From a virus, in IMG/VR virus record IMGVR_UViG_3300032291_003710, positions 1 to 34,342 of that record: 34,342 nt of DNA; one strand, 5' to 3'. Position numbers and translations under genes: made by a program. The notes below the pieces were generated by a model that saw only the letters and a program-made list of their open reading frames with translations, did no database searches and was not told where the DNA came from. Below are positions 3,361 through 34,342 of the stretch, in pieces (position 1 is the stretch's first letter; each line of letters starts with the position of its first letter).

Positions 3361-4968
3361 TTAGATAGTCTCTAAACCATTTACATAAATTTTCCCAAAA
3401 TAATCAGGTCTAATCATTTTCTTCGCGTAACGAGTCATAAGACCTTTACGTGGAGTAAATGTTTCTGGATCGTACAATAGAGGAGTCATGATCAAAGGAA
3501 CATATGGAGCAAATACTGCACCTGCTTCTAAGAATTGAGCACCTTTGTAACCCAATAATATAACGTTTTCAGTCATATATGGATTCTTGTACACTTTGTA
3601 ACGGCTATTTAATGAACCAATTTTCTGAATTCCGAAATTGTATTCCATTTTTTCTCCATCACCATCAGCAGCAAATCCTGGAATTGATTCCAATACAGTT
3701 GATATAGTTGGAGATACTACCATAAAGTTAGCACCACCACGTAATGATAATTGGTGAATTTTATTAGATACTTTTTGTAATTTAGTACCTAAAGTTTGGA
3801 ACCAACCACCTTGAGTGTTGTAGAAACCACCAGTTGTAGCTGAAGATTGTGTAAATCCACTACCATTCCATACTTCGTTATTTCTTGCTGACCAAAAATC
3901 TACTGTGAAAGCATTTGTTATCAACATATCTAACAATTCAAGATCAATTTCCATTGAAATGTATTGAGATAAGATACCAGTTAATTCTGCCTCAGCATCA
4001 ACACTATGGTAAGCATTTAAATCCTGTGCAAATTCTGGAGTCCATTGTGCTTTTAACTTACGTGTTTTAGCAACAATAGCTTCTGATTTTAACTGAACAT
4101 TGATTTCAGGGATAGAAATTGGATTAGCTTGAGATAATGTACTACCATCTTCAAAATCACCACGTGACTCAGGAGCAGTAACTTTGTTGTAAGTTAATAA
4201 ACCAGTAGTACCAGCAAAACCAGTGCTACCTGATACGATTAACGTTAAAGCACCACCTGCAGTGAAACTAGTAAATTGTTGTAAAAGATTAGCAGGTGTT
4301 AAAATACCAGATCCTGAAGTTACAACGAAAGATCTAATTCCGTTTATATCAAATGAACTAGAAATAGAAGTTAATTGACCAGCAGCAACAGTAACTTTGG
4401 TTAAAGAACCAGTAGCTACATAAGTACCATCATAATTAACATCAGCAAAAGAAACTGAACCTGTTGAGAAAGTTACAGAAGCTGTTGGAGAGTTATATGA
4501 ATAAGAGAAACGTCCTGCCTCATATAAACCACCGTTAAGTTCAGTTACGTTAGTAGTTGCATTAGCACCATAAAGTGAAGCTCCAGAAGTATATGGTTGT
4601 TTTGTAGTACCATATTTAAAATCTAGATAGAAAACTAGACCTGAAGGTAAGTTCATTGGTTGAACTGAAAGGAATTCTTTCGCTGCAATTTGACCAAATA
4701 CTCTTCTTACTAATGGTAAAGCAACACCAGCCCAGTTTTCTGAGTTGTATCCACCACCAGACATACTAGCAGTTCCACCAGTTACGTTTCCTTCGGTGAT
4801 TAATTGTTTTGCTTGATTTTCAAGCAACATTGACATTGTGTTTTTATCAATTTTATTAGAAATACCTTCTAATAATCCTGAATTAACCCATTTATTAGAT
4901 AGACGTTTTGCATCGTCAGATACCTGCTTAAATTGGTTAGATGATTCTAATAATTGTTGTACGTTCAT
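3361..4968 (-). CDS. gp23: Major capsid protein, gp23-like
   Basis: A 535-aa T4-type major head protein. The N-terminal region (residues 1-59) ends in Q-L-I-T-E/G-N, equivalent to the T4 gp23 prohead-protease site (F-L-T-E/A-E). Further gp23 signatures are V-R-R-V-F at 88-92, S-V-Q-P-M-N-L-P-S-G at 101-110, and the block at about 292-345 with K-L-K-A-Q-W, A-Q-D-L-N-A-Y-H and D-A-E-A-E-L. Residues about 160-265 are Ser/Thr/Gly-rich and beta-like with no counterpart that I recognise in T4; they probably form a surface insertion domain. It follows the scaffold gene by 33 nt and is closed by a strong terminator. It forms the hexamers of the head shell. Confidence 0.96.
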   Translation of the reverse strand: MNVQQLLESSNQFKQVSDDAKRLSNKWVNSGLLEGISNKIDKNTMSMLLENQAKQLITEGNVTGGTASMSGGGYNSENWAGVALPLVRRVFGQIAAKEFLSVQPMNLPSGLVFYLDFKYGTTKQPYTSGASLYGANATTNVTELNGGLYEAGRFSYSYNSPTASVTFSTGSVSFADVNYDGTYVATGSLTKVTVAAGQLTSISSSFDINGIRSFVVTSGSGILTPANLLQQFTSFTAGGALTLIVSGSTGFAGTTGLLTYNKVTAPESRGDFEDGSTLSQANPISIPEINVQLKSEAIVAKTRKLKAQWTPEFAQDLNAYHSVDAEAELTGILSQYISMEIDLELLDMLITNAFTVDFWSARNNEVWNGSGFTQSSATTGGFYNTQGGWFQTLGTKLQKVSNKIHQLSLRGGANFMVVSPTISTVLESIPGFAADGDGEKMEYNFGIQKIGSLNSRYKVYKNPYMTENVILLGYKGAQFLEAGAVFAPYVPLIMTPLLYDPETFTPRKGLMTRYAKKMIRPDYFGKIYVNGLETI

Positions 4969-5001: not shown

Positions 5002-5922
5002 TTATTTAATAATACCAGCTAATTGTTGCATTCTAGAAATACTTTCGTTTACTTCAACGATTTGTTTCTTTGGTGCTATACCAGCAGCTTTTGAAGCAAA
5101 ACCTAATGATTCTTTAATTTGTGATTTAACGTTTGATGTTACAGCAGTTAATGTACTTTCTAAAGATTCAAATACTAATTTAGCTTCGTTTGGAGTTGTT
5201 GCTTTATCAAATGAGGCAATAACTTTAACTTTTTGTGATTCGGTTAAGTTTTTAGCTTTGAAGATTTTGTTTACATAAAGTAATTTAGCATTTAATAAAT
5301 TAACTTCTTGCAATTCAGAGCGTAAAGTGTTGATAGTTTTAACAGCTTCATCTAAATCAGATGAATCATCATTTTTTTCATCTAATGATTCTAATTCAGC
5401 TAATAATTCTTCTAAATTAATTTCTTCAGATTCTTCCATCATTTCATCTTCCATTCCTAGATCAATTTCTTCATCTTCTACATTGTCCATTTCATCATCC
5501 ATCATTTCATCATCACCCATTTCTTGAGCAATAATGTCTTTAATAAGATCTTTTAAATCTTCAACAGACATATCAGAAACTTCTACTTCTTCATCACCTT
5601 CTTCACCTTCTTCTTCTTCACCTTCTTCTTCTTCACCTTCTTCTTTAGCTTCATCCATTCCTTTTTTATCTTCTTCAGCATCTAATTCAGCTAAAATTGC
5701 AGATAAATCGAAATCTTCTTCTAAATCATCTTCTACTTCCATAGCATCTTCTACTTCATCATCCATCATGTCATCTTCCATTTCTTGTAATTTGGTAGAT
5801 AACATTGATTGAAGTCTTGGAGTAAGTGCTTCTTCTAAAGCAACCTTTGCATTTGCTAATGCTGCCTCACGTACTTGTTTAGCGTCGGCAATAGCTTCTT
5901 TGAATAAATCTTTGTTTGTCAT
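5002..5922 (-). CDS. gp22: Prohead core scaffold protein, gp22-like
   Basis: A 306-aa, extremely acidic protein. Residues about 45-185 are dominated by Glu/Asp with repeated E-E-G-E-E-E runs, flanked by Ala/Lys-rich helices at the N-terminus and a coiled-coil region at about 195-270. Composition, size and position between the prohead protease and capsid genes match T4 gp22, which forms the internal scaffold and is degraded by the protease. The C-terminus reads V-N-E-S-I-S-R-M-Q-Q-L-A-G-I-I-K, and the M-Q-x-L-A-G-I motif is shared with two other proteins here. It has a separate promoter region: a terminator and an AT box lie upstream, with a leader of about 110 nt. AAGGA lies 10 nt before the ATG. 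Confidence 0.93.
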   Translation of the reverse strand: MTNKDLFKEAIADAKQVREAALANAKVALEEALTPRLQSMLSTKLQEMEDDMMDDEVEDAMEVEDDLEEDFDLSAILAELDAEEDKKGMDEAKEEGEEEEGEEEEGEEGDEEVEVSDMSVEDLKDLIKDIIAQEMGDDEMMDDEMDNVEDEEIDLGMEDEMMEESEEINLEELLAELESLDEKNDDSSDLDEAVKTINTLRSELQEVNLLNAKLLYVNKIFKAKNLTESQKVKVIASFDKATTPNEAKLVFESLESTLTAVTSNVKSQIKESLGFASKAAGIAPKKQIVEVNESISRMQQLAGIIK

Positions 5923-6117: not shown

Positions 6118-6726
6118 TTAACAAAGAGGACAAACTCCCGTTTGGTTACAAATTATTTCTGTAATTAAACTATTTATTCTTTCATAATTTTTAATAGGAT
6201 TATATTGTTTATTCTCAGCTAAAGACATATATGCTTCAGGTGTAGAAGGAACAGATACAAGATCAAAACATAATAATTCAAAATCCTCTTGCACTTCAAC
6301 TGTTTCACCAATTTGCTTAACTGAACCCATACCACGAGAAGATATACCTAATGGAATATCTGCTGATATTAATTCTTGTGCAATTTTACCTGATGGAGTA
6401 TTTAGTAACATTAATTCTCCCATTACATTATTTCCATCCCACCATACTTTAGTAATATTGTGAGAAACATTATTTAAGTTAACGATTGAGGATTCAGGAT
6501 GATCTAATTCACCCATAGCTGTTTTTTGTGCTACAGGACCTTCTATATATTTTTCAATTTGTTTTAATAGAATATCTTTAGGATAAACACGACCATTACC
6601 ATTTTTTACTTCAGCTTCTTGTAATTTACCTCTGATGCGCATTCTACCATCAGACATGGTTTTACCTTCAGTTAATGTTAATTTAGCGATATGGAATGGT
6701 GTATGATCTATTAATAATGCTTTCAT
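6118..6726 (-). CDS. gp21: Prohead core protease, gp21-like
   Basis: A 202-aa serine protease of the T4 gp21 family. The family motifs are visible: N-G-N-G-R-V-Y-P at about 42-49, G-E-L-D-H-P with the catalytic His76, and G-I-S-S-R-G with the catalytic Ser at 129 or 130. In T4, gp21 cuts the capsid, scaffold and internal proteins after [L/I]-x-E during head maturation, then degrades itself. The [L/I]-x-E sites in the capsid and tagged proteins of this window are its likely substrates. The gene precedes the scaffold gene as in T4 and ends in a terminator. The short C-terminal C-N-Q-T-G-V-C-P-L-C tail with three cysteines is unusual. Confidence 0.95.
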   Translation of the reverse strand: MKALLIDHTPFHIAKLTLTEGKTMSDGRMRIRGKLQEAEVKNGNGRVYPKDILLKQIEKYIEGPVAQKTAMGELDHPESSIVNLNNVSHNITKVWWDGNNVMGELMLLNTPSGKIAQELISADIPLGISSRGMGSVKQIGETVEVQEDFELLCFDLVSVPSTPEAYMSLAENKQYNPIKNYERINSLITEIICNQTGVCPLC

Positions 6727-9135: not shown

Positions 9136-11013
9136 TTATATATCCTTAATATTTTTTTCATCTAACATATTAGTTTTTTCCGAAGTTTTTGGTTTATTAA
9201 ATACTATAGATTTTAATAAATCTTTATTTCTATATAGTTCTGCTAATGCTAATGGAGAACCACCTTTTGGAGTTCCACTTTCTTCAGGTTTATTAGCTAC
9301 ATATAAAGTTGAGTTTTCTTTACTTCCTAATCTATCTTTACCTAATGGATCTCTTTGTGTTCCAACAATAGATGCTTTTTCTTTAGGACGTCCAACTGGT
9401 TTTGTTTCATCATATCCTGGAGGAACAGAGCCATTACTTCCAACTCCATTTCTTCCTGTACCATATAATGTAGCTAAGTCGTGAGGTGTACCATATGATT
9501 TACCAGATTGTGCTGGATCATTTCCTTCATTCTCAATTTGAGATAAACGGAATTTACGTTTTTGATCTTCAATTATCAAATCACGATAATCATCATATTG
9601 ATCTTCTGAGAATTGGAATATATTATGATAAATCCAATCAGTAGGCATTAAATTACTATCTTGAATTTCTTGAGCTAATGCGATTTTTTCTTTCCATAAT
9701 GCTACTTTTTCTTGTTCATAAATAATTGAAGGAACAGTTAATGATAATTCAAAATTAGATAATGCTTCACCATCAAATCCCTGAGTATATAAATGAACTA
9801 AAGCCATTTTATATAATTCTGATAGTGCAATACGTTGAATACGTTCAACAGTACGAGCAAATCTAATATCTTCAGCAGCTAATGTAGCTTTACCTTGTAA
9901 ATCTTTTTCAAATCCAAAATATGCTTTAGGAACTTTAAGAGCAGCTAACATTTCATCTCTTAAGAATATAACATCCTCAATAGCATTATATTCTAATCCC
10001 TTAATAGTATCAATTTTGGTATTTGAATTACCACCACGTTGAGGAATATAAAAATCCTCCATTAGATTTTGTACGTTATATTTTAAATTATATTCCCCAG
10101 TTGCTTGATCAATATATGGAGTTTTTTTCATTTTTTGTTTTAACTTCTCCATATATCCATCAACCTCAGCATTTGGTAAATTACCAATATCAACATAAAA
10201 TACACGTTTTTCTGGGGCACGAGTAATACGATGTAATAACATCGCGTCCTTCATTAGAACGTATTGTTTATACGTTTTACGTGCGGGTTCAATATATGAT
10301 CTTCCATAAGGTAGGTAATTAGCATCCGTTAATAAACGAAAGTGAGCAATTTCGTAATTTTCAAATTTAATTTTACCATCTCTATCTTTAACTCTTGAAT
10401 TTAATCCACCAGCGGCAATAACCATTGGGTCAATTCTAAAACAAACATATGATGGATTTTGAGGATCTTGACCTTCTTCACGAACCATATCATATACTGA
10501 TAATGGTGTTACATTATATATACCAAATCCTTCTGCAATCTCCATATGTAAATAAAAATCACCATATTTACACATATTACGAATCCATAACCAAAGATTA
10601 AATTCAACATTTAATATATCGTAAAATAAATTATATAATATTTTTTGGATACGTTCATCTGGGGATTTAATTTGTAATATCTCACCCATTTCATTTTTTA
10701 ATGTTGATTCATCTGAAATGATATCAAGTGTAGAAGCAATAATAGATTCAGTATCCATAGCTTCATAATCAGTATACAACTGAATACGAAGTGTTTGGTA
10801 ATTTATAGTTGGGTTATACGGCATGTTAGCTCCGTATCTATGTAATTTAGTAAATCTATCTATTAAGGCATTTGTTTTTACGTTTCCGTAAGCTTGAATA
10901 CTGTCTGTATCAAAAACTTTAAGTTGTTTACCACCAACATTTCTAATAATAACGTCAGTACTAAATAATCGTTTTAAATTTCCAAATAATCCTCCTTGAT
11001 TGTTATCAGCCAT
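9136..11013 (-). CDS. gp20: Portal protein, gp20-like
   Basis: A 625-aa T4-type portal vertex protein. Characteristic segments are D-Y-E-A-M-D-T-E-S-I-I-A-S-T-L-D, N-M-C-K-Y-G-D-F-Y-L, R-I-T-R-A-P-E-K-R-V-F-Y-V-D-I-G-N-L-P and the following L-E-Y-N-A-I-E-D-V-x-F-L-R-D-E-M. In T4 the dodecamer nucleates prohead assembly and forms the DNA channel used by the terminase. The protein is about 100 residues longer than T4 gp20; the excess is largely a Gly/Pro/Lys-rich C-terminal tail after about residue 500 that looks disordered. It follows the terminase by 41 nt. Confidence 0.96.
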   Translation of the reverse strand: MADNNQGGLFGNLKRLFSTDVIIRNVGGKQLKVFDTDSIQAYGNVKTNALIDRFTKLHRYGANMPYNPTINYQTLRIQLYTDYEAMDTESIIASTLDIISDESTLKNEMGEILQIKSPDERIQKILYNLFYDILNVEFNLWLWIRNMCKYGDFYLHMEIAEGFGIYNVTPLSVYDMVREEGQDPQNPSYVCFRIDPMVIAAGGLNSRVKDRDGKIKFENYEIAHFRLLTDANYLPYGRSYIEPARKTYKQYVLMKDAMLLHRITRAPEKRVFYVDIGNLPNAEVDGYMEKLKQKMKKTPYIDQATGEYNLKYNVQNLMEDFYIPQRGGNSNTKIDTIKGLEYNAIEDVIFLRDEMLAALKVPKAYFGFEKDLQGKATLAAEDIRFARTVERIQRIALSELYKMALVHLYTQGFDGEALSNFELSLTVPSIIYEQEKVALWKEKIALAQEIQDSNLMPTDWIYHNIFQFSEDQYDDYRDLIIEDQKRKFRLSQIENEGNDPAQSGKSYGTPHDLATLYGTGRNGVGSNGSVPPGYDETKPVGRPKEKASIVGTQRDPLGKDRLGSKENSTLYVANKPEESGTPKGGSPLALAELYRNKDLLKSIVFNKPKTSEKTNMLDEKNIKDI

Positions 11014-11054: not shown

Positions 11055-12638
11055 TTAAAATAACCACGTTATATCTTCTTTACCACCCATTCCGTTATCG
11101 ATTTCATATGGATTAATAAATCCACCTGGCATTGTTGGATAGATACTATTATAACCAGTTTTTGACATTCCTGCTAAAGATGCTCTAGTAATATCAAGTC
11201 CTGCTGATTGGTATTTTAGTGCTGTATCTCTTAAGAATAATCCAAAACCACAACTTAATACTAAATCATCAGTATACCCATTTTGAGCTTGTGGCTTACC
11301 ATTGTGCCAAATAAATACTCTTAATTCTTCTAATAAACGTTTTGAGTGAAATATAAAAGCACCTTCCCTAATATACGATTCCATTTTGGAGATGACAAGC
11401 GGTCTCGTCTTTGTTGAATTAGTAAATCCAGGAACTACTTGATCATTTTCTAATCTATCAAGATACTTATCCATACTCATATCTCCATATGAACGAGGTG
11501 AATAATATAAATTTTGATATCCTTTTTCAATAATTGTATTTACTACATCCCATCCAATGTTTGCATTCTCTACTATTAACAGAGCATTATTATATTCAGC
11601 AGCAACGGACGCTAACATATGTCCATATTCACGAGTACCGATGTGTGATTTAAATTCAGCTACTTGTTCACATGCTTCTACGTCTATAACATGGAATGCT
11701 GAATAATCATTTCCATCACCGCGAGCAACATCGGCTGTTACCATATATTGTTTACTATAATCTGGGTATTTCCATACCCAGAAATCTCCTCCTAAAAATC
11801 TATGTTCAATAGGATCAATAATATGATTTGCTTCATACCATTTTAATGTATCAGGTTCTACAACTGAATTACCAGAACCTAAGAAGTCACAATCATATTC
11901 TTGAGCAAATTCACGAGCAGACATATTTGATTTTTCAGTATCGTACCATATTTGATCTCTATCAGGATGTAAATTCCACTTTAATTCTACTGGATTAAAG
12001 TCATTATCACCCATTTGAGCCTCAGTATACATTCTATGGAACCAATTTCCAATACCATTTGGGGAGGATAATGCTATAATACGTCCACCAGTTGCAATTG
12101 TTGGTTTTATACTAGTGTATATTTTATCAATACCTTCAATAAAGGCAGCCTCATCAATTAATAATAAAGATACAGCATAAGATCTACCAGCATCAGAGGC
12201 AGCAGATGTTGCTATAATTTGAGAGTTGTTTGCTAATTTAAGAGATAATTTATTATCTGATATTGGTTTTTTATTTCCACGTAACCATCCTGGTAGATTG
12301 TTGTACATAAATTGTACTTTATCAACCATACCTTTAGCAGTTTCTTGTTTAGTAGCAATACATAACACTGTTTTATCTTTATTGAATAACATTGTATGTA
12401 AAGAAAAACCTGCAGCTAAGGTAGATATACCTAACTGACGTGATTTATTTATAATATTAAAACGTTGATTACGAAAATCATTTAATACATCTTCTTGAAA
12501 TGGATATAAATGAAACAATATTCTTCCTTTTATAGGATGTTGGATATAACAATATTTGCGAAAAAAATGAATTGGATCTTGGCTACATTTAATATACTCT
12601 TGTGTTATTATTTTTTTTATATTTTCTTGTTCAGACAT
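11055..12638 (-). CDS. gp17: Terminase large subunit, gp17-like
   Basis: A 527-aa DNA-packaging motor from the ATG at 12638; a TTG two codons upstream is less likely. The ATPase domain has the T4-type Walker A S-R-Q-L-G-I-S-T (66-73), Walker B L-L-I-D-E-A (D162/E163) and the coupling motif S-S-P-N-G. The RNase-H-like nuclease domain has T-A-D-V-A-R-G-D (D303), I-V-E-N-A-N (E357) and Y-T-D-D-L-V-L (D457/D458). It packages DNA into the prohead through the portal encoded next. A terminator and an AT box lie just upstream, so the terminase probably starts the head-assembly transcript. No small terminase subunit was recognised in the window. Confidence 0.97.
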   Translation of the reverse strand: MSEQENIKKIITQEYIKCSQDPIHFFRKYCYIQHPIKGRILFHLYPFQEDVLNDFRNQRFNIINKSRQLGISTLAAGFSLHTMLFNKDKTVLCIATKQETAKGMVDKVQFMYNNLPGWLRGNKKPISDNKLSLKLANNSQIIATSAASDAGRSYAVSLLLIDEAAFIEGIDKIYTSIKPTIATGGRIIALSSPNGIGNWFHRMYTEAQMGDNDFNPVELKWNLHPDRDQIWYDTEKSNMSAREFAQEYDCDFLGSGNSVVEPDTLKWYEANHIIDPIEHRFLGGDFWVWKYPDYSKQYMVTADVARGDGNDYSAFHVIDVEACEQVAEFKSHIGTREYGHMLASVAAEYNNALLIVENANIGWDVVNTIIEKGYQNLYYSPRSYGDMSMDKYLDRLENDQVVPGFTNSTKTRPLVISKMESYIREGAFIFHSKRLLEELRVFIWHNGKPQAQNGYTDDLVLSCGFGLFLRDTALKYQSAGLDITRASLAGMSKTGYNSIYPTMPGGFINPYEIDNGMGGKEDITWLF

Positions 12639-12658
12639 ATACAATTAATATTATTGTA

Positions 12659-12739: not shown

Positions 12740-13234
12740 TTATTTTTTATATACTTTAAAGGTTTTAATTAATTCATCTTTTGAATAAGTTCTGCTATCA
12801 CCATCAACAGCAAATACTACTTTATGTTTTCCAGTTGTAGGTAATACTCCTTTATAAATACCAACTAAACCTCCATAGTTTGTTTCTACATTATATTCTG
12901 GTTTAAGATTTGATAAATCATCTTTGATTGGTTCAAGTTTATTATTTACCGGTAATTCCCAATCCTTTTCCTCATCTTTAGATACATAATTTTTAGTGTA
13001 ATTTATAGCATCTTCTGGGGTATCAAATTTTCGAATTTGATCGTATTTACCTGTAGATAGATTTTTCATTCTATACCATCCCTTTCCATCAGGATGTAAA
13101 GTAAATAAATAATCACCAGGATTTTTAGATGATAATTTTTTAGGCCAGTCTTCGTTTTTATTTAATTGTGATTCGTTTAGAATACCAGCTAATTCTTGCA
13201 TTCTTTTAATTTCGTTTATAAATTGTTTTTTCAT
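12740..13234 (-). CDS. Tagged hypothetical protein with M-Q-x-L-A-G-I motif
   Basis: A 164-aa protein, last gene of the accessory transcript. The N-terminus M-K-K-Q-F-I-N-E-I-K-R-M-Q-E-L-A-G-I-L-N-E carries the M-Q-x-L-A-G-I motif that ends the scaffold protein and the 82-aa protein at 17889, followed by an L-N-E site. Residues about 45-90 (Y-R-M-K-N-L-S-T-G, then F-D-T-P-E-D-A-I-N-Y) look like a small beta-alpha domain, and a C-terminal beta domain ends at K-V-Y-K-K. No enzyme motif is seen. The tag suggests that it joins the prohead core and is processed by the protease; this is inference. Confidence 0.65.
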   Translation of the reverse strand: MKKQFINEIKRMQELAGILNESQLNKNEDWPKKLSSKNPGDYLFTLHPDGKGWYRMKNLSTGKYDQIRKFDTPEDAINYTKNYVSKDEEKDWELPVNNKLEPIKDDLSNLKPEYNVETNYGGLVGIYKGVLPTTGKHKVVFAVDGDSRTYSKDELIKTFKVYKK

Positions 13235-13927: not shown

Positions 13928-14821
13928 TTATCTATCTTTATTCTTATCTTCAGGTGCTTTACGACGTTGTAAATATTCACTACCTGCTACTAAATCTTCA
14001 ATACGTTTTTCTAAATCAGTTTTCATATTTGATAATTTTTCTGCTTCACCTCTATCTTTAGAAATCATATCATCACCACCTCTAGATATTTTTTTATTTT
14101 GTCTAAGAGCACTATCAATTTTTCTTAAGCGTTCTTTATAATCTAAAAATTTCATTAATTTATCATATTCTTCATTAGAGATTGTAGGTTTTACTTTTGG
14201 AGCATCTTTCTTTAAATTAGCAACAAATTCTTCTTCTCCACTATCACCGGCAGCTCTAGCTTTAGCAAATGATGCTGCTATTTCTTCATCACTTGGTTCA
14301 AAAGCAGGGCTATCAAACTTACCTTTACCAATAAAGAAATCTTCAGGTTCAAGAGTTTGTTTTGTTGTTGGAGGAGCTACTTTACCTGTTTTTTTATCAA
14401 CACGAGACGCAGCAATGCCTGTACCACCTACTGGTTCTAATATTCCTGATGCTACTAATGATTGTACTACTGGATTTATTGCTTGTTGAGGACGATCAAA
14501 TTTTTCTTTAGCAATTTGAGCAACAGATGCTTCTTTGTTTGCTTGTAAATAATCTATAATTCCTGTTACTCCTTTAGAATTTTTTACTTTATCACTTAAA
14601 TCATCTAATTTAGATAGATCTCCAATTTTATACTTAATTGAAATACGAGCCATTTCAGTTACACTATCTTTTTCAGATGATACTGCTGCTTTTTGAGCAT
14701 TTAATGCTTTCAATTTAGCATCTATTGATTTTAACTCAGCTGATTTTGCTGCATCCTCTAAAGGACCTTCAGCCATTACTTCTAAGATAGCTTCTTTAAT
14801 TATTTTTTCTAGTTTTTTCAT
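13928..14821 (-). CDS. Capsid-tagged protein with a winged-helix-like domain
   Basis: A 297-aa protein. Its N-terminus M-K-K-L-E-K-I-I-K-E-A-I-L-E-V-M-A-E/G (1-18) is a good capsid-targeting candidate with an M-A-E/G site. Residues about 20-55 are a coiled coil. Residues about 83-133 (I-I-D-Y-L-Q, then A-S-V-A-Q-I-A, P-V-V-Q-S-L-V-A-S-G-I-L-E-P) look like a winged helix DNA-binding domain. The rest is charged, partly disordered, with a C-terminal coiled coil. It overlaps the upstream stop by 4 nt. A packaged DNA-binding protein, possibly acting on host transcription after injection, is a reasonable but untested idea. Confidence 0.65.
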   Translation of the reverse strand: MKKLEKIIKEAILEVMAEGPLEDAAKSAELKSIDAKLKALNAQKAAVSSEKDSVTEMARISIKYKIGDLSKLDDLSDKVKNSKGVTGIIDYLQANKEASVAQIAKEKFDRPQQAINPVVQSLVASGILEPVGGTGIAASRVDKKTGKVAPPTTKQTLEPEDFFIGKGKFDSPAFEPSDEEIAASFAKARAAGDSGEEEFVANLKKDAPKVKPTISNEEYDKLMKFLDYKERLRKIDSALRQNKKISRGGDDMISKDRGEAEKLSNMKTDLEKRIEDLVAGSEYLQRRKAPEDKNKDR

Positions 14822-15342
14822 TTTTTAATTACGTTAAAACCATCTCTGATGGTGTATAAACTATAGTTGGTTAAGGTTTTTATTTGTTTATCTAAATATG
14901 CTTGGTATAAATATGACTTTTGTTCTTTTCCTGTTAGTAAATTTATATCTTTATTTGATGCCTCTACATACAAACCATCAGGATTATTTTCTTGAATAAA
15001 TTCTTTAATAATATATGACAATGTAGTCATTATTTTTAATATTGTTTTTATATCAGATTTTAATGCTTGTGATTCAATTCCATTAATGGTAAATTCTACA
15101 TTATAAAATTCTTTATTTTTATAATTAGGTACTTTAGAAAAATAATATTGTTTAGTAATATCATCCTCAATTAATGTAAATCTAATTTTAACTACATAAG
15201 AAATATCATTAAACTTAAATATAAACGAATAATAAGTATTACTTATTTTTTTATAATTAAGTGGTTCTACAGATGCTTCTCCAATTTCATTAATAATAAT
15301 TTTATCTAATATTTCTGTAGTAAGAGTACGCAATGAGGCCAT
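14818..15342 (-). CDS. Tagged alpha/beta protein of unknown function
   Basis: A 174-aa protein. The N-terminal helix L-R-T-L-T-T-E-I-L-D-K-I-I-I-N-E/I ends in I-N-E, a possible protease site. The rest has beta strands (Y-Y-S-F-I-F-K-F, Y-V-V-K-I-R-F-T) and a C-terminal Y-V-E-A-S-N-K-x-K-S-Y-L-Y-Q-A-Y segment that I have seen in other phage internal or structural proteins but cannot name. There are no catalytic residues in a recognisable arrangement. It sits 3 nt downstream of the P-loop gene and overlaps the next gene by 4 nt. Confidence 0.6.
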   Translation of the reverse strand: MASLRTLTTEILDKIIINEIGEASVEPLNYKKISNTYYSFIFKFNDISYVVKIRFTLIEDDITKQYYFSKVPNYKNKEFYNVEFTINGIESQALKSDIKTILKIMTTLSYIIKEFIQENNPDGLYVEASNKDINLLTGKEQKSYLYQAYLDKQIKTLTNYSLYTIRDGFNVIKK

Positions 15343-21472: not shown

Positions 21473-22765
21473 TTACCATTTGCGGCAACTCCAATATCTT
21501 GCTTTTGTTCTAGGTCCTGGATTATCACAATTATGTCTAGCTCTAAATGCTTTACGTCGTACTGGATTATTTTTCTTTATACTCATTCTTTTGCCTTTAG
21601 CTGACGTTCCACCAAATCCAAAATTGACTTTAACAACTTTACCTGTTTTAGGGTTTTTAACATATACTTTAAATTTCTTACTATCACCTTGCATTGGTTT
21701 ACCCAATGGTACAGTACGACCCTGATATTTATCTTCAAGTAAACAGTTACAATCAACTTCAGATAATTGTTGTTGATATTCTCTCATAAACTCAATAAAT
21801 TCTTTTATATCTTGTTCATTTTCAACATCGTATTCATCTAAATCATTATTGTATTTGTAACTATTGTCAAAATTACATTTATGGCATATATATAAATCAG
21901 AAGGATCAGATTGACTTACTTTCCAACTCCATCCACATTTTTCACATTCGATGGTTGGATCTTGTATTTCATTAATTTTTACTTTTGCTTTTTTAGTATT
22001 AGGAACAAACTGTTTATCTGATGCTGCTTTTTTCTTTGATGTAGCAGCACGTTCTGCTTTAGTTAAACTATTTGCTTTAGCACGAGGTAAACAACGTGTT
22101 GTTTTATTACCTTTTTTCATTGTACCACAAGGACCAGTTATATTACCTTGTGTATCAATACGCACCCAATCTTCTTTTTTAAACCAATCACGTAGTGATT
22201 CATCTAAATTATCTTTAACATAAATTAAAGCATGTTTTTCATTATTATGAAATAATATTGTTTGATGAGGTTTTAATTTATTAACTCTTATAAATTCACT
22301 AGCTACTAATTGAGAAGCTGCATTTGTATTAGCATTAAAAAACTCAACCTTAATATTATCTAATGGTATATCTTTTAAAAATGATTTTTTAATATCAATA
22401 GAAACACCAACATCTAATTTATATCCTTCTTTTTTAAGTTTATTAATAGCTTTATCTAATAAATTACTATTATTTTGAGTTGTATTAGGAGATACTATTG
22501 TTTGAGTAGTATTAGGAGAGGATTTTGCTTGAGTATTACTAACTGAACTTAATCCTAATAATGCAGTTAAGGCTAATGTTTTAAAATTAATTTCATCTAA
22601 ATTATCTTCTTCCATTAATCCTTTACATACTTTAACAGCACGACCTGAAAGATAAGCGGATGGTTTTTCACCGGCAGCTTTACGGCGGTTATAGTAAGCT
22701 CTACCCTTAGGGCATAACTTTTTTTCAGCTAATATTTCGTTTAATATGTCTGTTAATTTAATCAT
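21473..22765 (-). CDS. Modular basic polyprotein with capsid tag and zinc ribbon
   Basis: A 430-aa protein. The tag M-I-K-L-T-D-I-L-N-E-I-L-A-E/K (1-14) is followed by a basic module (C-P-K-G-R-A-Y-Y-N-R-R-K at 18-29), a hydrophobic stretch after L-D-E58, an alpha/beta region, then a module with G-P-C-G-T-M-K-K-G and R-C-L-P-R-A-K (DUF5872-like). Next is a zinc ribbon (C274/C277/C294/C297), and last a basic C-terminal module ending R-Y-W-S-C-R-K-W. Protease-like sites lie between modules: L-D-E189, I-N-E266 and L-L-E344. I infer a precursor cut into several small DNA-binding proteins in the head. The start overlaps the upstream stop by 8 nt. Confidence 0.7.
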   Translation of the reverse strand: MIKLTDILNEILAEKKLCPKGRAYYNRRKAAGEKPSAYLSGRAVKVCKGLMEEDNLDEINFKTLALTALLGLSSVSNTQAKSSPNTTQTIVSPNTTQNNSNLLDKAINKLKKEGYKLDVGVSIDIKKSFLKDIPLDNIKVEFFNANTNAASQLVASEFIRVNKLKPHQTILFHNNEKHALIYVKDNLDESLRDWFKKEDWVRIDTQGNITGPCGTMKKGNKTTRCLPRAKANSLTKAERAATSKKKAASDKQFVPNTKKAKVKINEIQDPTIECEKCGWSWKVSQSDPSDLYICHKCNFDNSYKYNNDLDEYDVENEQDIKEFIEFMREYQQQLSEVDCNCLLEDKYQGRTVPLGKPMQGDSKKFKVYVKNPKTGKVVKVNFGFGGTSAKGKRMSIKKNNPVRRKAFRARHNCDNPGPRTKARYWSCRKW

Positions 22766-24584: not shown

Positions 24585-26987
24585 TTATAGTCCTAGTTTT
24601 TTTAACTGTGTTATTGTATCATTTGCTGATGTATGTAAAATACCTATACCTCCAGCATTTATCCATTGTTCAATATTATCTTCTCTATCGTCAATTAAAA
24701 TAGCATTAGGTTCTGCTAATTCTTGTTTTTCAGGTGCTGGTTTAAGTATTAATTTAGTTCCAGGTATATTATCTTCAACCCAAATTTTCTTTCCTGTTCT
24801 AGATGATTTCTCTCTTGATGGTGCTGATAGTATAGATGGGGAATAATTTTTAATATATTTCCATAATTGTTCTCCATCGGGCATCCAATCTAAATTTATC
24901 CAGAAATTAGCACCAGCATCTGTAATAGGTTGCCAAAAATCAGCATCACCTTTAACGTGGTTTCCTTTAATATTTTTACCAGTTAATCTTTTATAACCAT
25001 CTTCAAAATCAACAATCACCCCATCCATATCGCAGTATATTTTATATTGTTGTTTTTCGTTTATATTATACATTTCTTTCAAAACTTCTCTTCTTATTAT
25101 ATTTAATATTGATTTATTTCTTTCTATTTTTGATTTTGAATTTATATCACCATTTTGGAAATAATCTAAAGCTTGTTCATAAGATTCATCCATTGTTTCC
25201 ATTCTTTTTTTAATACTATCTTTAGCAACTTCTTCAATAGATCTTAAAACAACTTTATATTCATCACTATTATCAATTCTATATCTATTATTTAATAATG
25301 TTTGAAGCTTTGTTGCATAATTTTTATATAAAGATGTTTTTATATCATTATTACCAGAGATATGAAGTGATTTTGGATGATTAGTTTTTAACCAATCTTC
25401 TAAAACTTTAAAAGATGTTGCTGTTACTTGTTTCCAAGCTTCTGGGGATTTATTCTTGTTATCAGGAGTAAAAAACCAGTTTAAAGACCATATATTTTTT
25501 TCAGGAATTTCCAATCTAAAATCATATTTGGCTTCTATATCATCATCATTACTTACTATATAAAGATTTTTAGATACTTTATCAATAATAGGTAAATCTT
25601 TTTCAAATAATTCAGTTAAAGCATATTTCCTATATTGGTTTTTTTTTTCTATCATAACACTTTCATATATTCCTTTATTGTCTTTTCCAAATTTACGTAA
25701 TAAAACACCTGCTTGTGCATTTGCTTCATTTTCAATTTCAGATCCTGTTTCACCAGATCCTTGTTCTATTCTATTATCTTCACCTTGTTTATGATGAACC
25801 AATTCGTGTGCTAATGTTCTTAATATATCAGCGGTATTTCTATTTTTAATATAAATCCAAATATGATTTACGTTTGGATCAAAATATCCAAATGTACCTT
25901 TTTCTTGAGATTCATTAGTATCGTATGAAAATTTAACTGTAGGTAATTTTTGAATTCCTAATTCATTAACAGCAAACTTTACAAATTCAGCTATTTGAGA
26001 TTTTTTTTGAATTTTATTTTCGTTAATTTGTAAATTTAAAGTTGCTTGTAATACAGTAGGTATTATTTTTAAAGCTTTATATAGTGCTAATATAACTTCT
26101 CCACCTACTAAATAGTATTTATCTTGACTATAACATAATACTAATGGTAAAGGTAATTCTTCACCATTCTTTATAGCTTCAATGTATGGTTTTACTTTTA
26201 TTCTTTTATCGTGAGCATATCTAATAGCATGTTCTAAATTATCAATATTATAGGAATTTGTATTTTGTAATTTAGACCAAATATCATCACCCAATACAAC
26301 AGGTGTACCAGCATTAAAAGCATATTCCATATCAGGAATAGGAAGATTAAAATAAGCAGCTGCTTTTTCTATTTTATCTCTCTGAGTTAAAATATAATCT
26401 TGATAATCATCTTGTTCAAATTCAATTGGGGGGGATTCTTGTAATTTTTCAGGAGTAGCAATACTTAAAGCATTTTTAAATTCTTCAACATCAACACCAT
26501 TAGGAAGATATTTTTCAATTTCTTTTGAATTTTTCCAACGTAAAGCATTACGTAAATAAGTTGCACTAATTCCTTCCTCAGCTGAACCAGCATCATATAC
26601 AGAAGCATTATTATATTTTCCTGATGTCTTTATTTGATTAAATCTATCACTTTCACCTTTACCAAAAGCAACAATAAATTTTTGATCAGGATTATTTTTT
26701 ATAACATCATAAGTCTCAGTAATAGGACTAGTAGCAGCTATTTTAAATGAGACATTTGAATCTAAAAAAGGAGCATATAATTGCCATACAGCAAAACTTT
26801 CCTCAGCACTAACTCCATCTCTTGAGTTAGGAGATATTAAAACAATAACTTCATCAGCTAATGTAGAAAGTTGTTTAACTACACCATAATGCCCTTTATG
26901 GGGTGGTTTAAAGGCACCAGGAAATATTGCTATTGTTTTATTATCTTCTTCTAATAATAGATTTACTAAATATTCTCCTAACTTCAT
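24585..26987 (-). CDS. Capsid-tagged multi-enzyme fusion: nucleotidyltransferase, ParB-like, zinc metalloprotease, HAD phosphatase
   Basis: An 800-aa protein. The tag M-K-L-G-E-Y-L-V-N-L-L-L-E (1-13) is followed by a cytidylyltransferase-fold domain (about 17-175) with H-K-G-H at 30-33 and I-S-A-T-x-x-R at 140-146. Residues about 275-318 resemble a ParB/sulfiredoxin-like fold (P-L-P-L-V-L-C-Y, Y-L-V-G-G-E). I-N-E323 precedes a zinc metalloprotease with H394-E-L-V-H398 and a downstream Glu near 417-421. T-E-L-F-E462 precedes an unknown beta domain. I-N-E644 precedes a HAD domain with D653-M-D-G and I-D-D-R-E-D at 765-770 (5'-nucleotidase-like). The sites between domains suggest cleavage into separate enzymes. 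Start overlaps the kinase stop (4 nt). Confidence 0.8.
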   Translation of the reverse strand: MKLGEYLVNLLLEEDNKTIAIFPGAFKPPHKGHYGVVKQLSTLADEVIVLISPNSRDGVSAEESFAVWQLYAPFLDSNVSFKIAATSPITETYDVIKNNPDQKFIVAFGKGESDRFNQIKTSGKYNNASVYDAGSAEEGISATYLRNALRWKNSKEIEKYLPNGVDVEEFKNALSIATPEKLQESPPIEFEQDDYQDYILTQRDKIEKAAAYFNLPIPDMEYAFNAGTPVVLGDDIWSKLQNTNSYNIDNLEHAIRYAHDKRIKVKPYIEAIKNGEELPLPLVLCYSQDKYYLVGGEVILALYKALKIIPTVLQATLNLQINENKIQKKSQIAEFVKFAVNELGIQKLPTVKFSYDTNESQEKGTFGYFDPNVNHIWIYIKNRNTADILRTLAHELVHHKQGEDNRIEQGSGETGSEIENEANAQAGVLLRKFGKDNKGIYESVMIEKKNQYRKYALTELFEKDLPIIDKVSKNLYIVSNDDDIEAKYDFRLEIPEKNIWSLNWFFTPDNKNKSPEAWKQVTATSFKVLEDWLKTNHPKSLHISGNNDIKTSLYKNYATKLQTLLNNRYRIDNSDEYKVVLRSIEEVAKDSIKKRMETMDESYEQALDYFQNGDINSKSKIERNKSILNIIRREVLKEMYNINEKQQYKIYCDMDGVIVDFEDGYKRLTGKNIKGNHVKGDADFWQPITDAGANFWINLDWMPDGEQLWKYIKNYSPSILSAPSREKSSRTGKKIWVEDNIPGTKLILKPAPEKQELAEPNAILIDDREDNIEQWINAGGIGILHTSANDTITQLKKLGL

Positions 26988-27745
26988 TTTATAAAATTAT
27001 TTATTTTTAATTTTGCTTGATCTATTGAATCAAATTCAGGTATAGTTTGAACTAATTGTGTTATATCAGTGTTTAATTGTTCTCTATCTGCTTTTGCTTT
27101 AGCTGCTTCTTCAGGTGTTTTTTCTTTACCTTTAAATGTTGCTGTATCAAAAAAACGTTTTTTAATATCTTCAACGTTATATTCAGTTTCAGCTTCTTTA
27201 GGATTATTATTAATTAATACAAATTTATCTCCAAATATTTTTCTATATTCATCAATATTTTTATTTACATCTTTCCATGTACGTAATACAATTTGTGGTA
27301 ATAAAGAACGTTCACGAGCAGCGTTACGTTCTAATGAAGTAATAGGTGAAACCCATATCATAATCATAAATGTTTCATATCCTAATGCTTCTAATTCTTT
27401 TTTTTTCTTTAATACTGGGTTTATAGCAGCTCCAACACTATCAATTATAATATTTTGTCTTTGAGATGATAATTCTACATATTTTTCTTTAGTTGACTTT
27501 TTAGCTTGGGCCATTAATTTAGCAGCTTGTGATAATTCTTCAGGGCCAAAGTCTTTTTGAGACATACCTAAACCAGCTGTTTTCAACAATTCCTCATATG
27601 TGTCGTCGATGTTTATGATTTTAAATTGATCGGTTTGAATTAACTGTTTAATCGTGTAACTTTTGCCAGATCCAGCAGGACCAGCCAAAAATATTGCTTT
27701 TGGTTTTTCTGCTATTTCTTTTAAAATATCTACTAATTTAATCAT
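26984..27745 (-). CDS. Capsid-tagged zeta-toxin-like P-loop kinase
   Basis: A 253-aa protein from the ATG at 27745; a TTG 12 codons upstream would lie in the terminator and is rejected. The tag M-I-K-L-V-D-I-L-K-E-I-A-E/K (1-13) ends in I-A-E directly before the P-loop strand K-A-I-F-L-A-G-P-A-G-S-G-K-S (Walker A about 22-29). N-I-D-D-T-Y follows, with R-N-A-A-R-E-R further on, which fits zeta-toxin/AAA_33-type small-molecule kinases. The C-terminal part is Lys/Glu-rich. Zeta toxins phosphorylate UDP-sugars, but the substrate here is unknown. A packaged kinase could act on the host early in infection. Confidence 0.75.
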   Translation of the reverse strand: MIKLVDILKEIAEKPKAIFLAGPAGSGKSYTIKQLIQTDQFKIINIDDTYEELLKTAGLGMSQKDFGPEELSQAAKLMAQAKKSTKEKYVELSSQRQNIIIDSVGAAINPVLKKKKELEALGYETFMIMIWVSPITSLERNAARERSLLPQIVLRTWKDVNKNIDEYRKIFGDKFVLINNNPKEAETEYNVEDIKKRFFDTATFKGKEKTPEEAAKAKADREQLNTDITQLVQTIPEFDSIDQAKLKINNFIK

Positions 27746-33081: not shown

Positions 33082-33858
33082 TTAACAAGCATTAACCCCA
33101 GTTATAGCACCAGTTGTTCTATTATAATATCCAAAATAATACACAGGTGGAACAATATTTAGTGAAAATAATATTACTTTACCATCTGGAGTTCCAGAAA
33201 GAACATATGGATTATTGGGTGGATTTGTATTATCATTATAAAATATTGTTACACCACTAGATACTGGAGATGTTGAGAATACAGCTAAGGCAGGTGGACC
33301 AAATTGGACATAAGTATCTGTTTGACTACAAGCTTCATCAGCACTATCAGCATATCCATATAGATTATATGAATAAATAGATACAGGTGTTGCTGTTGGT
33401 GTAGGTGTTAGTGTTGGTGTGGGTGTAGGTGTTGGTGTTGGTGTAGGTGTAGGTGTTGCTGTAGGTGTTGCTGTAGGTGTCGCAGTTGGTGATACAGGAG
33501 TTGCTGTTGGTGTAGGAGTTGGAGTTGGAGTTGCAGTTGGTGGTGCAGGAGTTGCTGTAGGTGTTGGTGTAGGTGTAGGTGTTGGGGTTGATGTTGGTGT
33601 AGGAGTTGGTGTTGGTGTAGGTGTAGGTGGTAAAACATCTATTTCTACTATATTTCCACAACCTATAGCAATATTTTCTAAAAATATACTTTTAACATCA
33701 TCAGAAACAGTTACATACACCCCTGATAATAAAGATGCTTTATCTGCACTACTTGGTGAGGCAGCAATAAGACTATCACTACTTGTAGTATTATAGTAAA
33801 TATTAAAAGGACCTGGGCTTGTTGTTGCGTCTAATGTTATAAGAAATATTTTAGCCAT
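33082..33858 (-). CDS. Pro-Thr repeat surface/structural protein
   Basis: A 258-aa protein. An N-terminal beta domain (about 1-75, [14 protein letters not shown]) is joined by a Pro-Thr/Ala-Thr-Pro linker of about 80 residues (P-T-P-T-P repeats) to a C-terminal beta domain (about 165-258) with several aromatic residues and a terminal Cys. Such rod-like linkers connect domains on virion surface or adhesion proteins. The linker is expected to be variable in length between relatives. It precedes the 101-aa virion gene. It is not tagged and has no signal peptide, so it is more likely a virion part than an exported host protein. Confidence 0.7.
33390..33632 (-). repeat. Degenerate Pro-Thr coding repeats
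   Basis: About 240 bases of imperfect 6- and 12-base units (plus strand GTTGGT and GTAGGT) that code for the Pro-Thr linker. The plus strand is rich in GG pairs and the minus strand in CC pairs, in contrast with the AT-rich surroundings. It is prone to slippage. Confidence 0.85.
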
Positions 33859-33880: not shown

Positions 33881-34342
33881 TTAACATCCAACTCCTGTAT
33901 TTGTTATAGTACTATATTCACACTCTACTGGATTTCCTGATACATAGTAAAATAAATATTGAGTACCTAGTATTAATGAGCATACAGTATCATCTCCTGC
34001 CATACTTAGTTGTTGAGCGTCTCCATTACAATCTTGGTAATTATAATATATAATACCTCCATCGGCTGCTGCTTTTTCTGCAGCATCTAATACTATAGCA
34101 TGTTCAGTACAAGTTGGTGCTGATGGTGTTTCGGTAGGTGTTGGCGTTGCTGTCGGCTCAGGTGTAGGTGTTGGCGTTGCTGTCGGCTCAGGTGTAGGTG
34201 TTGGCGTTGCTGTCGGCTCAGGTGTAGGTGTTGGAGTTGGACATGATGCTTGCGCACTTAATGTTGTTCCGGCAAAGTACCAAACAGTTCCAGCATATGC
34301 ATAATATCCCGATGCAGGAGTAGTAAAGTCCATATTTTGTAA
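33881..34342 (-). CDS. Pro-Thr repeat protein, N-terminus possibly outside window
   Basis: A reading frame of at least 150 aa from the ATG at 34333; the three codons before it, up to the window edge, are open, so the protein may begin upstream. A short aromatic segment (Y-Y-A-Y-A-G-T-V-W-Y-F-A-G-T) is followed by a Pro-Thr-Glu linker with three exact copies of a ten-residue unit T-P-T-P-E-P-T-A-T-P and a beta domain with four Cys (T-C-T-E, D-C-N, V-C-S-L, E-C-E). It resembles the next gene in layout, so the two may be paralogous virion surface proteins. Confidence 0.65.
   Translation of the reverse strand, partial: LQNMDFTTPASGYYAYAGTVWYFAGTTLSAQASCPTPTPTPEPTATPTPTPEPTATPTPTPEPTATPTPTETPSAPTCTEHAIVLDAAEKAAADGGIIYYNYQDCNGDAQQLSMAGDDTVCSLILGTQYLFYYVSGNPVECEYSTITNTGVGC
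34141..34230 (-). repeat. Three exact 30-bp tandem repeats
   Basis: Three consecutive identical 30-base units (34141-34170, 34171-34200, 34201-34230), each coding for ten residues of the Pro-Thr-Glu linker. A fourth unit starts and diverges after four bases. Exact identity suggests recent duplication by slippage. Confidence 0.95.

Follow-up and report, generated by a model that had tools for sequence, protein, structure and literature searches.

A probable head-packaged polyprotein of exchangeable modules with prohead protease-type sites in its linkers, from a virus with T4-type head genes

Polyproteins are familiar chiefly from retroviruses and from RNA viruses of animals, and prohead proteases are known as propeptide trimmers. 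In phage T4, cargo is drawn into the core by a tag of about 10 amino acids (aa) and is cleaved by gp21 during maturation (PMC9958956). Here we describe a gene from the viral record IMGVR_UViG_3300032291_003710, the whole of which (34,342 nucleotides, 34.3 kb) is referred to as the window. The open reading frame (ORF) at 24585-26987 on the minus strand starts with ATG and encodes 800 aa uninterrupted by stops. Five modules, at least two of them clearly enzymes, make up one chain in the order tag, NMNAT/PPAT-like transferase (module A), ParB-like fold (B), HExxH zincin (C), DUF6934-related domain (D) and HAD-fold 5'(3')-deoxyribonucleotidase (E). The T4 head protease motif, [L/I]-x-E, is present in every inter-module linker. 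From the comparisons presented below we infer packaging, cleavage of the linkers by a gp21-type protease, ejection and enzyme activities: with a probability of about 0.76, the protein is a head-packaged polyprotein of exchangeable cassettes.

The nearest known systems are the internal proteins of T4 and the polyvalent proteins. Similarity to T4 internal head proteins (IPI-III, Alt) includes a short tag at the N-terminus with a gp21-type site at its end, a gp21-type protease in the genome, the position of the gene among late head genes and a moderate resemblance, in fold comparison, of module D to parts of Alt-type ADP-ribosyltransferases. In T4, however, each tag serves a single protein and processing takes off no more than a propeptide, while the window protein has several modules in one chain, each preceded by a site. 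In phages and conjugative elements, polyvalent proteins, which Iyer et al. 2017 likened to polyproteins of RNA viruses, carry many unrelated domains per polypeptide, zincin and ParB-like domains among them, and are proposed to be delivered at infection; a zincin-like metallopeptidase hub domain occurs in about a third of them (PMC5512222). Several unrelated domains in one polypeptide and a zincin domain are present in the window protein, too, and its module B is a candidate counterpart of the DdrB-like ParB domain on the published list. Polyvalent proteins differ in that embedded metallopeptidases or rare cis assemblin-like domains were proposed to process them (PMC5512222), whereas the window linkers carry the motif of a separate prohead protease, and the window modules are further set apart by their existence as tagged genes.

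In head maturation of the jumbo phages phiKZ and SPN3US, many head cargo proteins are likewise cut after glutamate by a protease specific at P3, but the SPN3US motif is AxE and the cuts remove N-terminal propeptides (and one C-terminal, of the protease itself); these reports describe no case in which a single chain yields several mature proteins (PMC5694885, PMC10052503). The Dar proteins of phage P1 (DarA, DarB, DdrB) are head-packaged and have a targeting sequence, and DarA is cut by the prohead protease, although only its N-terminal piece is removed (PMC12810830) and the domains are different. In Flavobacterium phage immuto (gp182/183, MW353176), a 907-aa fusion of Pol-beta-type, NMNAT-like and zincin domains lies beside a tagged deoxyribonucleotidase gene; there the HAD is unfused, and the annotations are plainly NMN adenylyltransferase and 5' nucleotidase. 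In the open-access literature searched, no account was found of a prohead protease that cuts a single chain into its modules.

The initial annotation had proposed the same 800-aa ORF with sites LLE13, INE323, LFE462 and INE644, and all of these are exactly where it placed them. It had overlooked LQE184 ahead of the ParB-like module, IYE442, LTE459 and LKE638. Altogether 15 [LI]xE motifs end at residues 5, 13, 14, 91, 184, 323, 334, 442, 459, 462, 496, 586, 638, 644 and 759, and the site count in this protein alone is therefore uninformative. Modules and proposed sites are listed in the order of translation, together with the regions of low predicted local distance difference test (pLDDT) in the AlphaFold2 (AF2) model and with matches to profile hidden Markov models (HMMs).

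26949..26987, minus strand: N-terminal head-targeting tag MKLGEYLVNLLLE, residues 1-13; AF2 helix 3-13; proposed cut after E13 or E14
26454..26939, minus strand: module A, NMNAT/PPAT-like nucleotidyltransferase, residues 17-178; TIGR00125 and PF01467 above cut-off
26436..26444, minus strand: proposed prohead protease site LQE184; pLDDT<50 at 177-191
26031..26432, minus strand: module B, ParB/sulfiredoxin-like, residues 186-319; motif comparison and family HMM
26019..26027, minus strand: proposed site INE323; pLDDT<50 at 321-327
25677..26000, minus strand: module C, zincin metallopeptidase HELVH...ENEANA, residues 330-437; weak Peptidase_M78 and phrog_87 matches
25662..25670, minus strand: proposed site IYE442; ending of module C, IYQ-stop or I[YF]E by position in the chain
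25602..25619, minus strand: proposed sites LTE459 and LFE462; directly ahead of module D, where the model of that module starts at low confidence
25098..25595, minus strand: module D, DUF6934-related, residues 465-630, followed by C-terminal helices that reach to about 639; family HMMs and AF2
25056..25082, minus strand: proposed sites LKE638 and INE644; pLDDT<50 at 636-646
24588..25049, minus strand: module E, HAD-fold 5'(3')-deoxyribonucleotidase, residues 647-800; PHROG 2643, E 1.6e-27

Distribution of the motif was evaluated in relatives. Scans of viral contigs disclosed 131 relatives with the profile of modules A and B, while the HAD profile matched no fewer than 575; each scan contributed 80, and the comparison set comprised about 120 related proteins. 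Among 22 members below 70% identity, [LI]xE density reaches 0.0735 per aa in linkers and tags and 0.0054 in modules, a 13.6-fold difference. Linkers and tags of these members hold 79 sites, compared to 25.8 +- 4.3 in shuffled sequences (maximum 43 in 2000 shuffles), and the control motifs ExL, LxD, LxxE, LxQ and LE show no enrichment in their linkers. When tags are left out, internal linkers of 41 members below 60% identity hold 48 sites vs 16.7 +- 3.6 after shuffling, and 29 of 34 internal linkers bear the motif. It is present in all nine linkers between B and C (4.2 expected) and precedes internal module E in 18 of 21 cases (8.7 expected). The linker between A and B is variable in length and rich in P and E; L182 and E184 are nonetheless invariant in five aligned relatives. 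For modules A and E, the distance from the site to the domain start is equal behind an N-terminal tag and behind an internal linker. D-type domains in long chains open with LNE/VGEAN, and tagged separate copies with ILNE/IGDAS or IINE/IGEAS (slashes denote the proposed cut).

Folded modules show the opposite tendency: 58 [LI]xE were found where 112.6 are expected (0.52, z -5.8), and 101 vs 186.2 in a larger set. The same loci also encode non-virion proteins, and in these the motif is more frequent than expected (185 vs 145.7, 1.27). The motif [VF]xE is mildly depleted in modules too, and P3 is thus perhaps somewhat broader than L/I. Depletion depends on the state of fusion, as the ratio of observed to expected motifs in the HAD core is 0.58 when fused, 0.63 when N-terminally extended or tagged and 1.46 when free and untagged (binomial p 0.004; p-values given here are indicative). 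A similar dependence characterizes the end of the zincin module. This end mostly reads IYQ and a stop in chains that finish with the zincin, and I[Y/F]E in chains that continue into a further module. Wherever I/L-Y/F-x is present at this end, its last position is E in 21 of 25 modules with more protein behind them, compared to 5 of 24 C-terminal ones (p 1e-5). Module depletion and its dependence on fusion in the HAD argue for cleavage and not for targeting alone, since a targeting signal would have no reason to be purged from folded modules. Taken together, the abundance of the motif in linkers, its scarcity in modules and its response to fusion point to real cleavage, and in this way support what the initial annotation had suggested, namely a head-delivered polyprotein that would be cut by the prohead protease.

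The AF2 model of the whole protein, built from a 40-row alignment, has a mean pLDDT of 75 and a predicted template modelling score (pTM) of 0.33, the latter indicating modules modelled without a fixed mutual arrangement. The tag forms a helix that ends at residue 13. LQE184, INE323 and LKE638/INE644 lie within three stretches below pLDDT 50 (177-191, 321-327 and 636-646, respectively); residues 443-588 are equally low, around the shallowly aligned module D, where confidence is low because only the nearest relative contributes rows. Refolding of module D with its wider family gave a pTM of 0.73, with LFE462 ahead of the confident part, at the edge of the module. Burial of these sites inside domains was not seen.

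Module A is predicted to be a nucleotidyltransferase of the NMNAT/PPAT superfamily, based on its CTP_transf_like/cyt_tran_rel match, motifs HKGH and ISATYLR (of the HxGH and ISxTxxR types), Rossmann-like fold and structural similarity to PPAT (Z about 14). Module E bears the motifs CDMDG (DxDG) and LIDD (IDD) and matches 3bwv with Z 15.7 and human deoxyribonucleotidases with Z 15. Both assignments agree with those made initially. So does the metalloprotease call on HELVH, a zincin motif, and HExxH is retained in 57 family members of module C. The ParB-like call on module B is plausible from its relatives, which contain the motif Y-Y-L-V-A-G-N-T-R-L (LVAGNTRL), although no match exists in the Pfam, PHROG and NCBIfam libraries and the motif is degenerate in the window branch (LVGGEVIL, GGEVIL replacing GNTR). 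An active ParB-like nuclease was considered for this branch and rejected on account of the degenerate signature. The listing of PDB structures was filled by modules A and E, so that B and C were barely probed and their absence from it tells nothing. PADLOC gave no match for the polyprotein.

Module D, initially described as an unknown domain, belongs to a DUF6934-related family with a tagged copy elsewhere in the window. Family HMMs join it to small tagged separate genes (window 14818-15342, L002, L044, L096). The cut-off of PF22028 (DUF6934) is reached by L044 (27.1 vs cut-off 27) and L072; the window module itself is unlisted for PF22028. No PDB match below E 1e-3 resulted from the fold search, only weak GNAT-like similarities. 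Matches in a viral fold library include Alt-type ADP-ribosyltransferases of T4-like phages at template modelling (TM) scores of 0.43-0.48, which were not used as proof; as Alt itself is head-packaged, head cargo may quite generally share a domain of the D type. Fold matches of the model of 25068-25625 also include several uncharacterised long phage proteins.

Modules of the window protein are combined in many ways in its relatives. HMM mapping assigned the architecture A-B-C-D-E to the window and L002, A-B-C-E to L003 and L025, A-C-E to L038-L053 and A-C-D to L129. The five-module set, found only in the window and one 88% identical relative, is one among many shuffled architectures. In L024, L027 and others, A-B-C is accompanied by a separate HAD gene. 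P-A-B-C, where P stands for a Pol-beta-type domain, occurs in L005, L020, L021, L023 and L050, and P-A-...-C chains reach 1535 aa. A tag peptide of the MKLGEYLVNLLLE type is internal, between P and A, in L005, L006, L021, L023 and L050; at this junction, internal LSETNLGRYLASLILEAEDQPT in L005 compares with N-terminal MNLGQYLANILLEAEDQPT in L017. The Pol-beta-type module ahead of the internal tag is untagged in L005 (5137-7419), L006 (5134-8583), L021, L023 and L050.

In six proteins of 411-443 aa (L096, L097, L099, L100, L108, L109), the HAD module follows a module that by eye resembles the kinase encoded upstream in the window, with LAE or LNE ahead of the HAD. As the initial annotation proposed to verify, modules A, C, D and E also exist as separate genes, mostly with the head-targeting tag and with the site in the same register. 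Examples are the HAD with a canonical tag in L110 (MIKLIDLLNEIKAPQ/YQIYCDMDG), L112, L007 and immuto_183, and module C as a tagged gene in Synechococcus phage B23 (L012 4962; MNYKQFLRE...). Another exchangeable cassette, H-F-x-D-R-x-x-D ... IAKTIMRK, was noticed by eye in the long chains L129 788-2731, L064 and L066, and as separate genes in immuto (L009 17197-17955) and Melnitz (L010 11943-12392).

The polyprotein gene is located in a run of tagged genes, and the window carries a T4-type head gene set on its minus strand. Features identified by library or HMM searches are the following.

3361..4968, minus strand: major capsid protein gp23; PF07068, E 3e-75
6118..6726, minus strand: prohead protease of gp21 type; PF03420 Peptidase_S77, E 2.1e-33, and phrog_207 head maturation protease, E 3.5e-56
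14818..15342, minus strand: tagged separate relative of module D (IIINE/IGEAS); HMM searches
26984..27745, minus strand: tagged P-loop kinase (MIKLVDILKE/IAEKPKAIFLAGPAGSGKS); Zeta_toxin and AAA_33 matches

Genes at 11055-12644, 9136-11013 and 5002-5922 (minus strand) are presumably terminase, portal and scaffold, as judged by sequence, position and knowledge of T4, with no library scan behind these names. The N-terminal region of gp23 contains [LI]xE at 8, 34, 50 and 59, the last being ITE59. The upstream kinase gene and the start of the polyprotein overlap by 4 bases. Near-identical N-terminal tags open several window genes, and [LI]xE ends at residues 8-25 in 19 of the 36 window genes, compared to 10.5 expected from shuffled N-termini.

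A second apparent polyprotein of 430 aa is encoded at 21473-22765 (minus strand) and begins with tag MIKLTDILNEILAE. It matches phrog_23735 (an 81-aa family) at 190-263 and phrog_7595 (a 96-aa family) at 346-430, and contains 8 [LI]xE beyond its first 25 residues (2.5 expected). Modules related to it are rearranged in L003, L005-L007, HTVC008M and Melnitz. The peptide RMQ(E/Q)LAGI is common to the start of the gene at 12740-13234 (minus strand; MKKQFINEIKRMQELAGILNES) and the end of the scaffold at 5002-5922 (minus strand; SISRMQQLAGIIK), and is N-terminal in immuto gene L009 15684-16148; to judge from this distribution, it is possibly a second core-targeting signal. Two proteins at the window end (33082-33858 and 33881-34333, minus strand) include long (TPTP)n low-complexity stretches.

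In the proposed mechanism, the amphipathic tag MKLGEYLVNLLLE would recruit the uncut chain into the prohead core in the manner of the T4 capsid-targeting sequence. The gp21-type protease of the window would then cut after [L/I]-x-E, removing the tag and opening every inter-module linker. Cuts after the tag, 184, 323, 442 and/or 462, and 638/644 would give five pieces of roughly 120-180 residues, leaving separate nucleotidyltransferase, ParB-like domain, zincin, DUF6934-related domain and deoxyribonucleotidase in the head. Released modules may be ejected with the DNA and act early on nucleotide/NAD pools, proteins or DNA of the host. A site together with its module behaves as a cassette, usable as a tagged gene of its own or as a fusion behind another module. 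NMNAT-like proteins were detected by mass spectrometry in virions of the T4-like cyanophages S-CBWM1, S-SZBM1 and S-SCSM1, and the same literature mentions cytidyltransferases in cyanophage virions (PMC10665884, PMC9602691). The NMNAT-like gene of S-SZBM1 begins with MRFRQFIIEA.

Several points weigh against the proposed head-packaged, protease-cut polyprotein. The motif is missing from 5 of 34 internal linkers, and all statistics were computed on related, non-independent sequences. First modules of P-A-B-C relatives are untagged and their tag is internal, leaving head recruitment of such chains unexplained. The HAD is an untagged free gene in many relatives, and its carriage in the head is thus not universal. 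The literature search yielded no virion proteomics or cleavage data for the window virus or for Flavobacterium phage immuto, and authors of the cyanophage proteomes caution that abundant proteins may contaminate virions (PMC10665884, PMC9602691).

Among other explanations, the chain could be cut by its own zincin, module C, instead of gp21, as Iyer et al. 2017 propose for embedded metallopeptidases of polyvalent proteins (PMC5512222). HExxH is indeed intact in nearly all members. However, the linker motif is that of the N-terminal tags in many zincin-free window genes, of T4 gp21 type, and HAD fusions without module C (L096, L097, L099) retain the site, which makes self-processing unlikely; a role of the zincin at a later stage, inside the host, is compatible with this. 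Alternatively, the multi-domain protein would stay intact after tag removal, its linker motifs being remnants of tags from gene fusion. Fused peptides indeed have the appearance of former tags, as shown by NLGRYLASLILE in L005, which is similar to N-terminal tags such as that of L017. Remnants would nevertheless decay, whereas the motif persists while the linkers around it diverge, and they leave module depletion and the IYQ/IYE switch unexplained; we regard an intact protein as quite improbable. That the protein is an unpackaged, cytosolic multi-enzyme with a coincidentally tag-like N-terminus is hardly credible, even if a nucleotidyltransferase and a nucleotidase suit nucleotide metabolism in the infected cell and some relatives have an untagged free HAD, given the conserved register of the tag helix, the surrounding tagged genes, the NMNAT-like proteins of virions and a selection that removes the protease motif from tagged or fused modules but not from free, untagged ones.

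With somewhat less confidence than for the window protein itself, we lean towards a broader view, in which polyproteins are a common form of head cargo among T4-superfamily phages. Such chains would consist of exchangeable cassettes of site and module that share one tag for loading and are taken apart in the prohead by the maturation protease, and selection on the motif would be a recognition signature of head-borne proteins. The [LI]xE sites predict exact fragment ends, and the signature, enriched in linkers and purged from packaged modules, makes it computable which phage proteins ride in the head. If true, this would be a bacteriophage counterpart of retroviral Gag-Pol processing. If prohead proteases also separate mature proteins, tailed phages would deliver equimolar sets of early-acting proteins through polyprotein processing.
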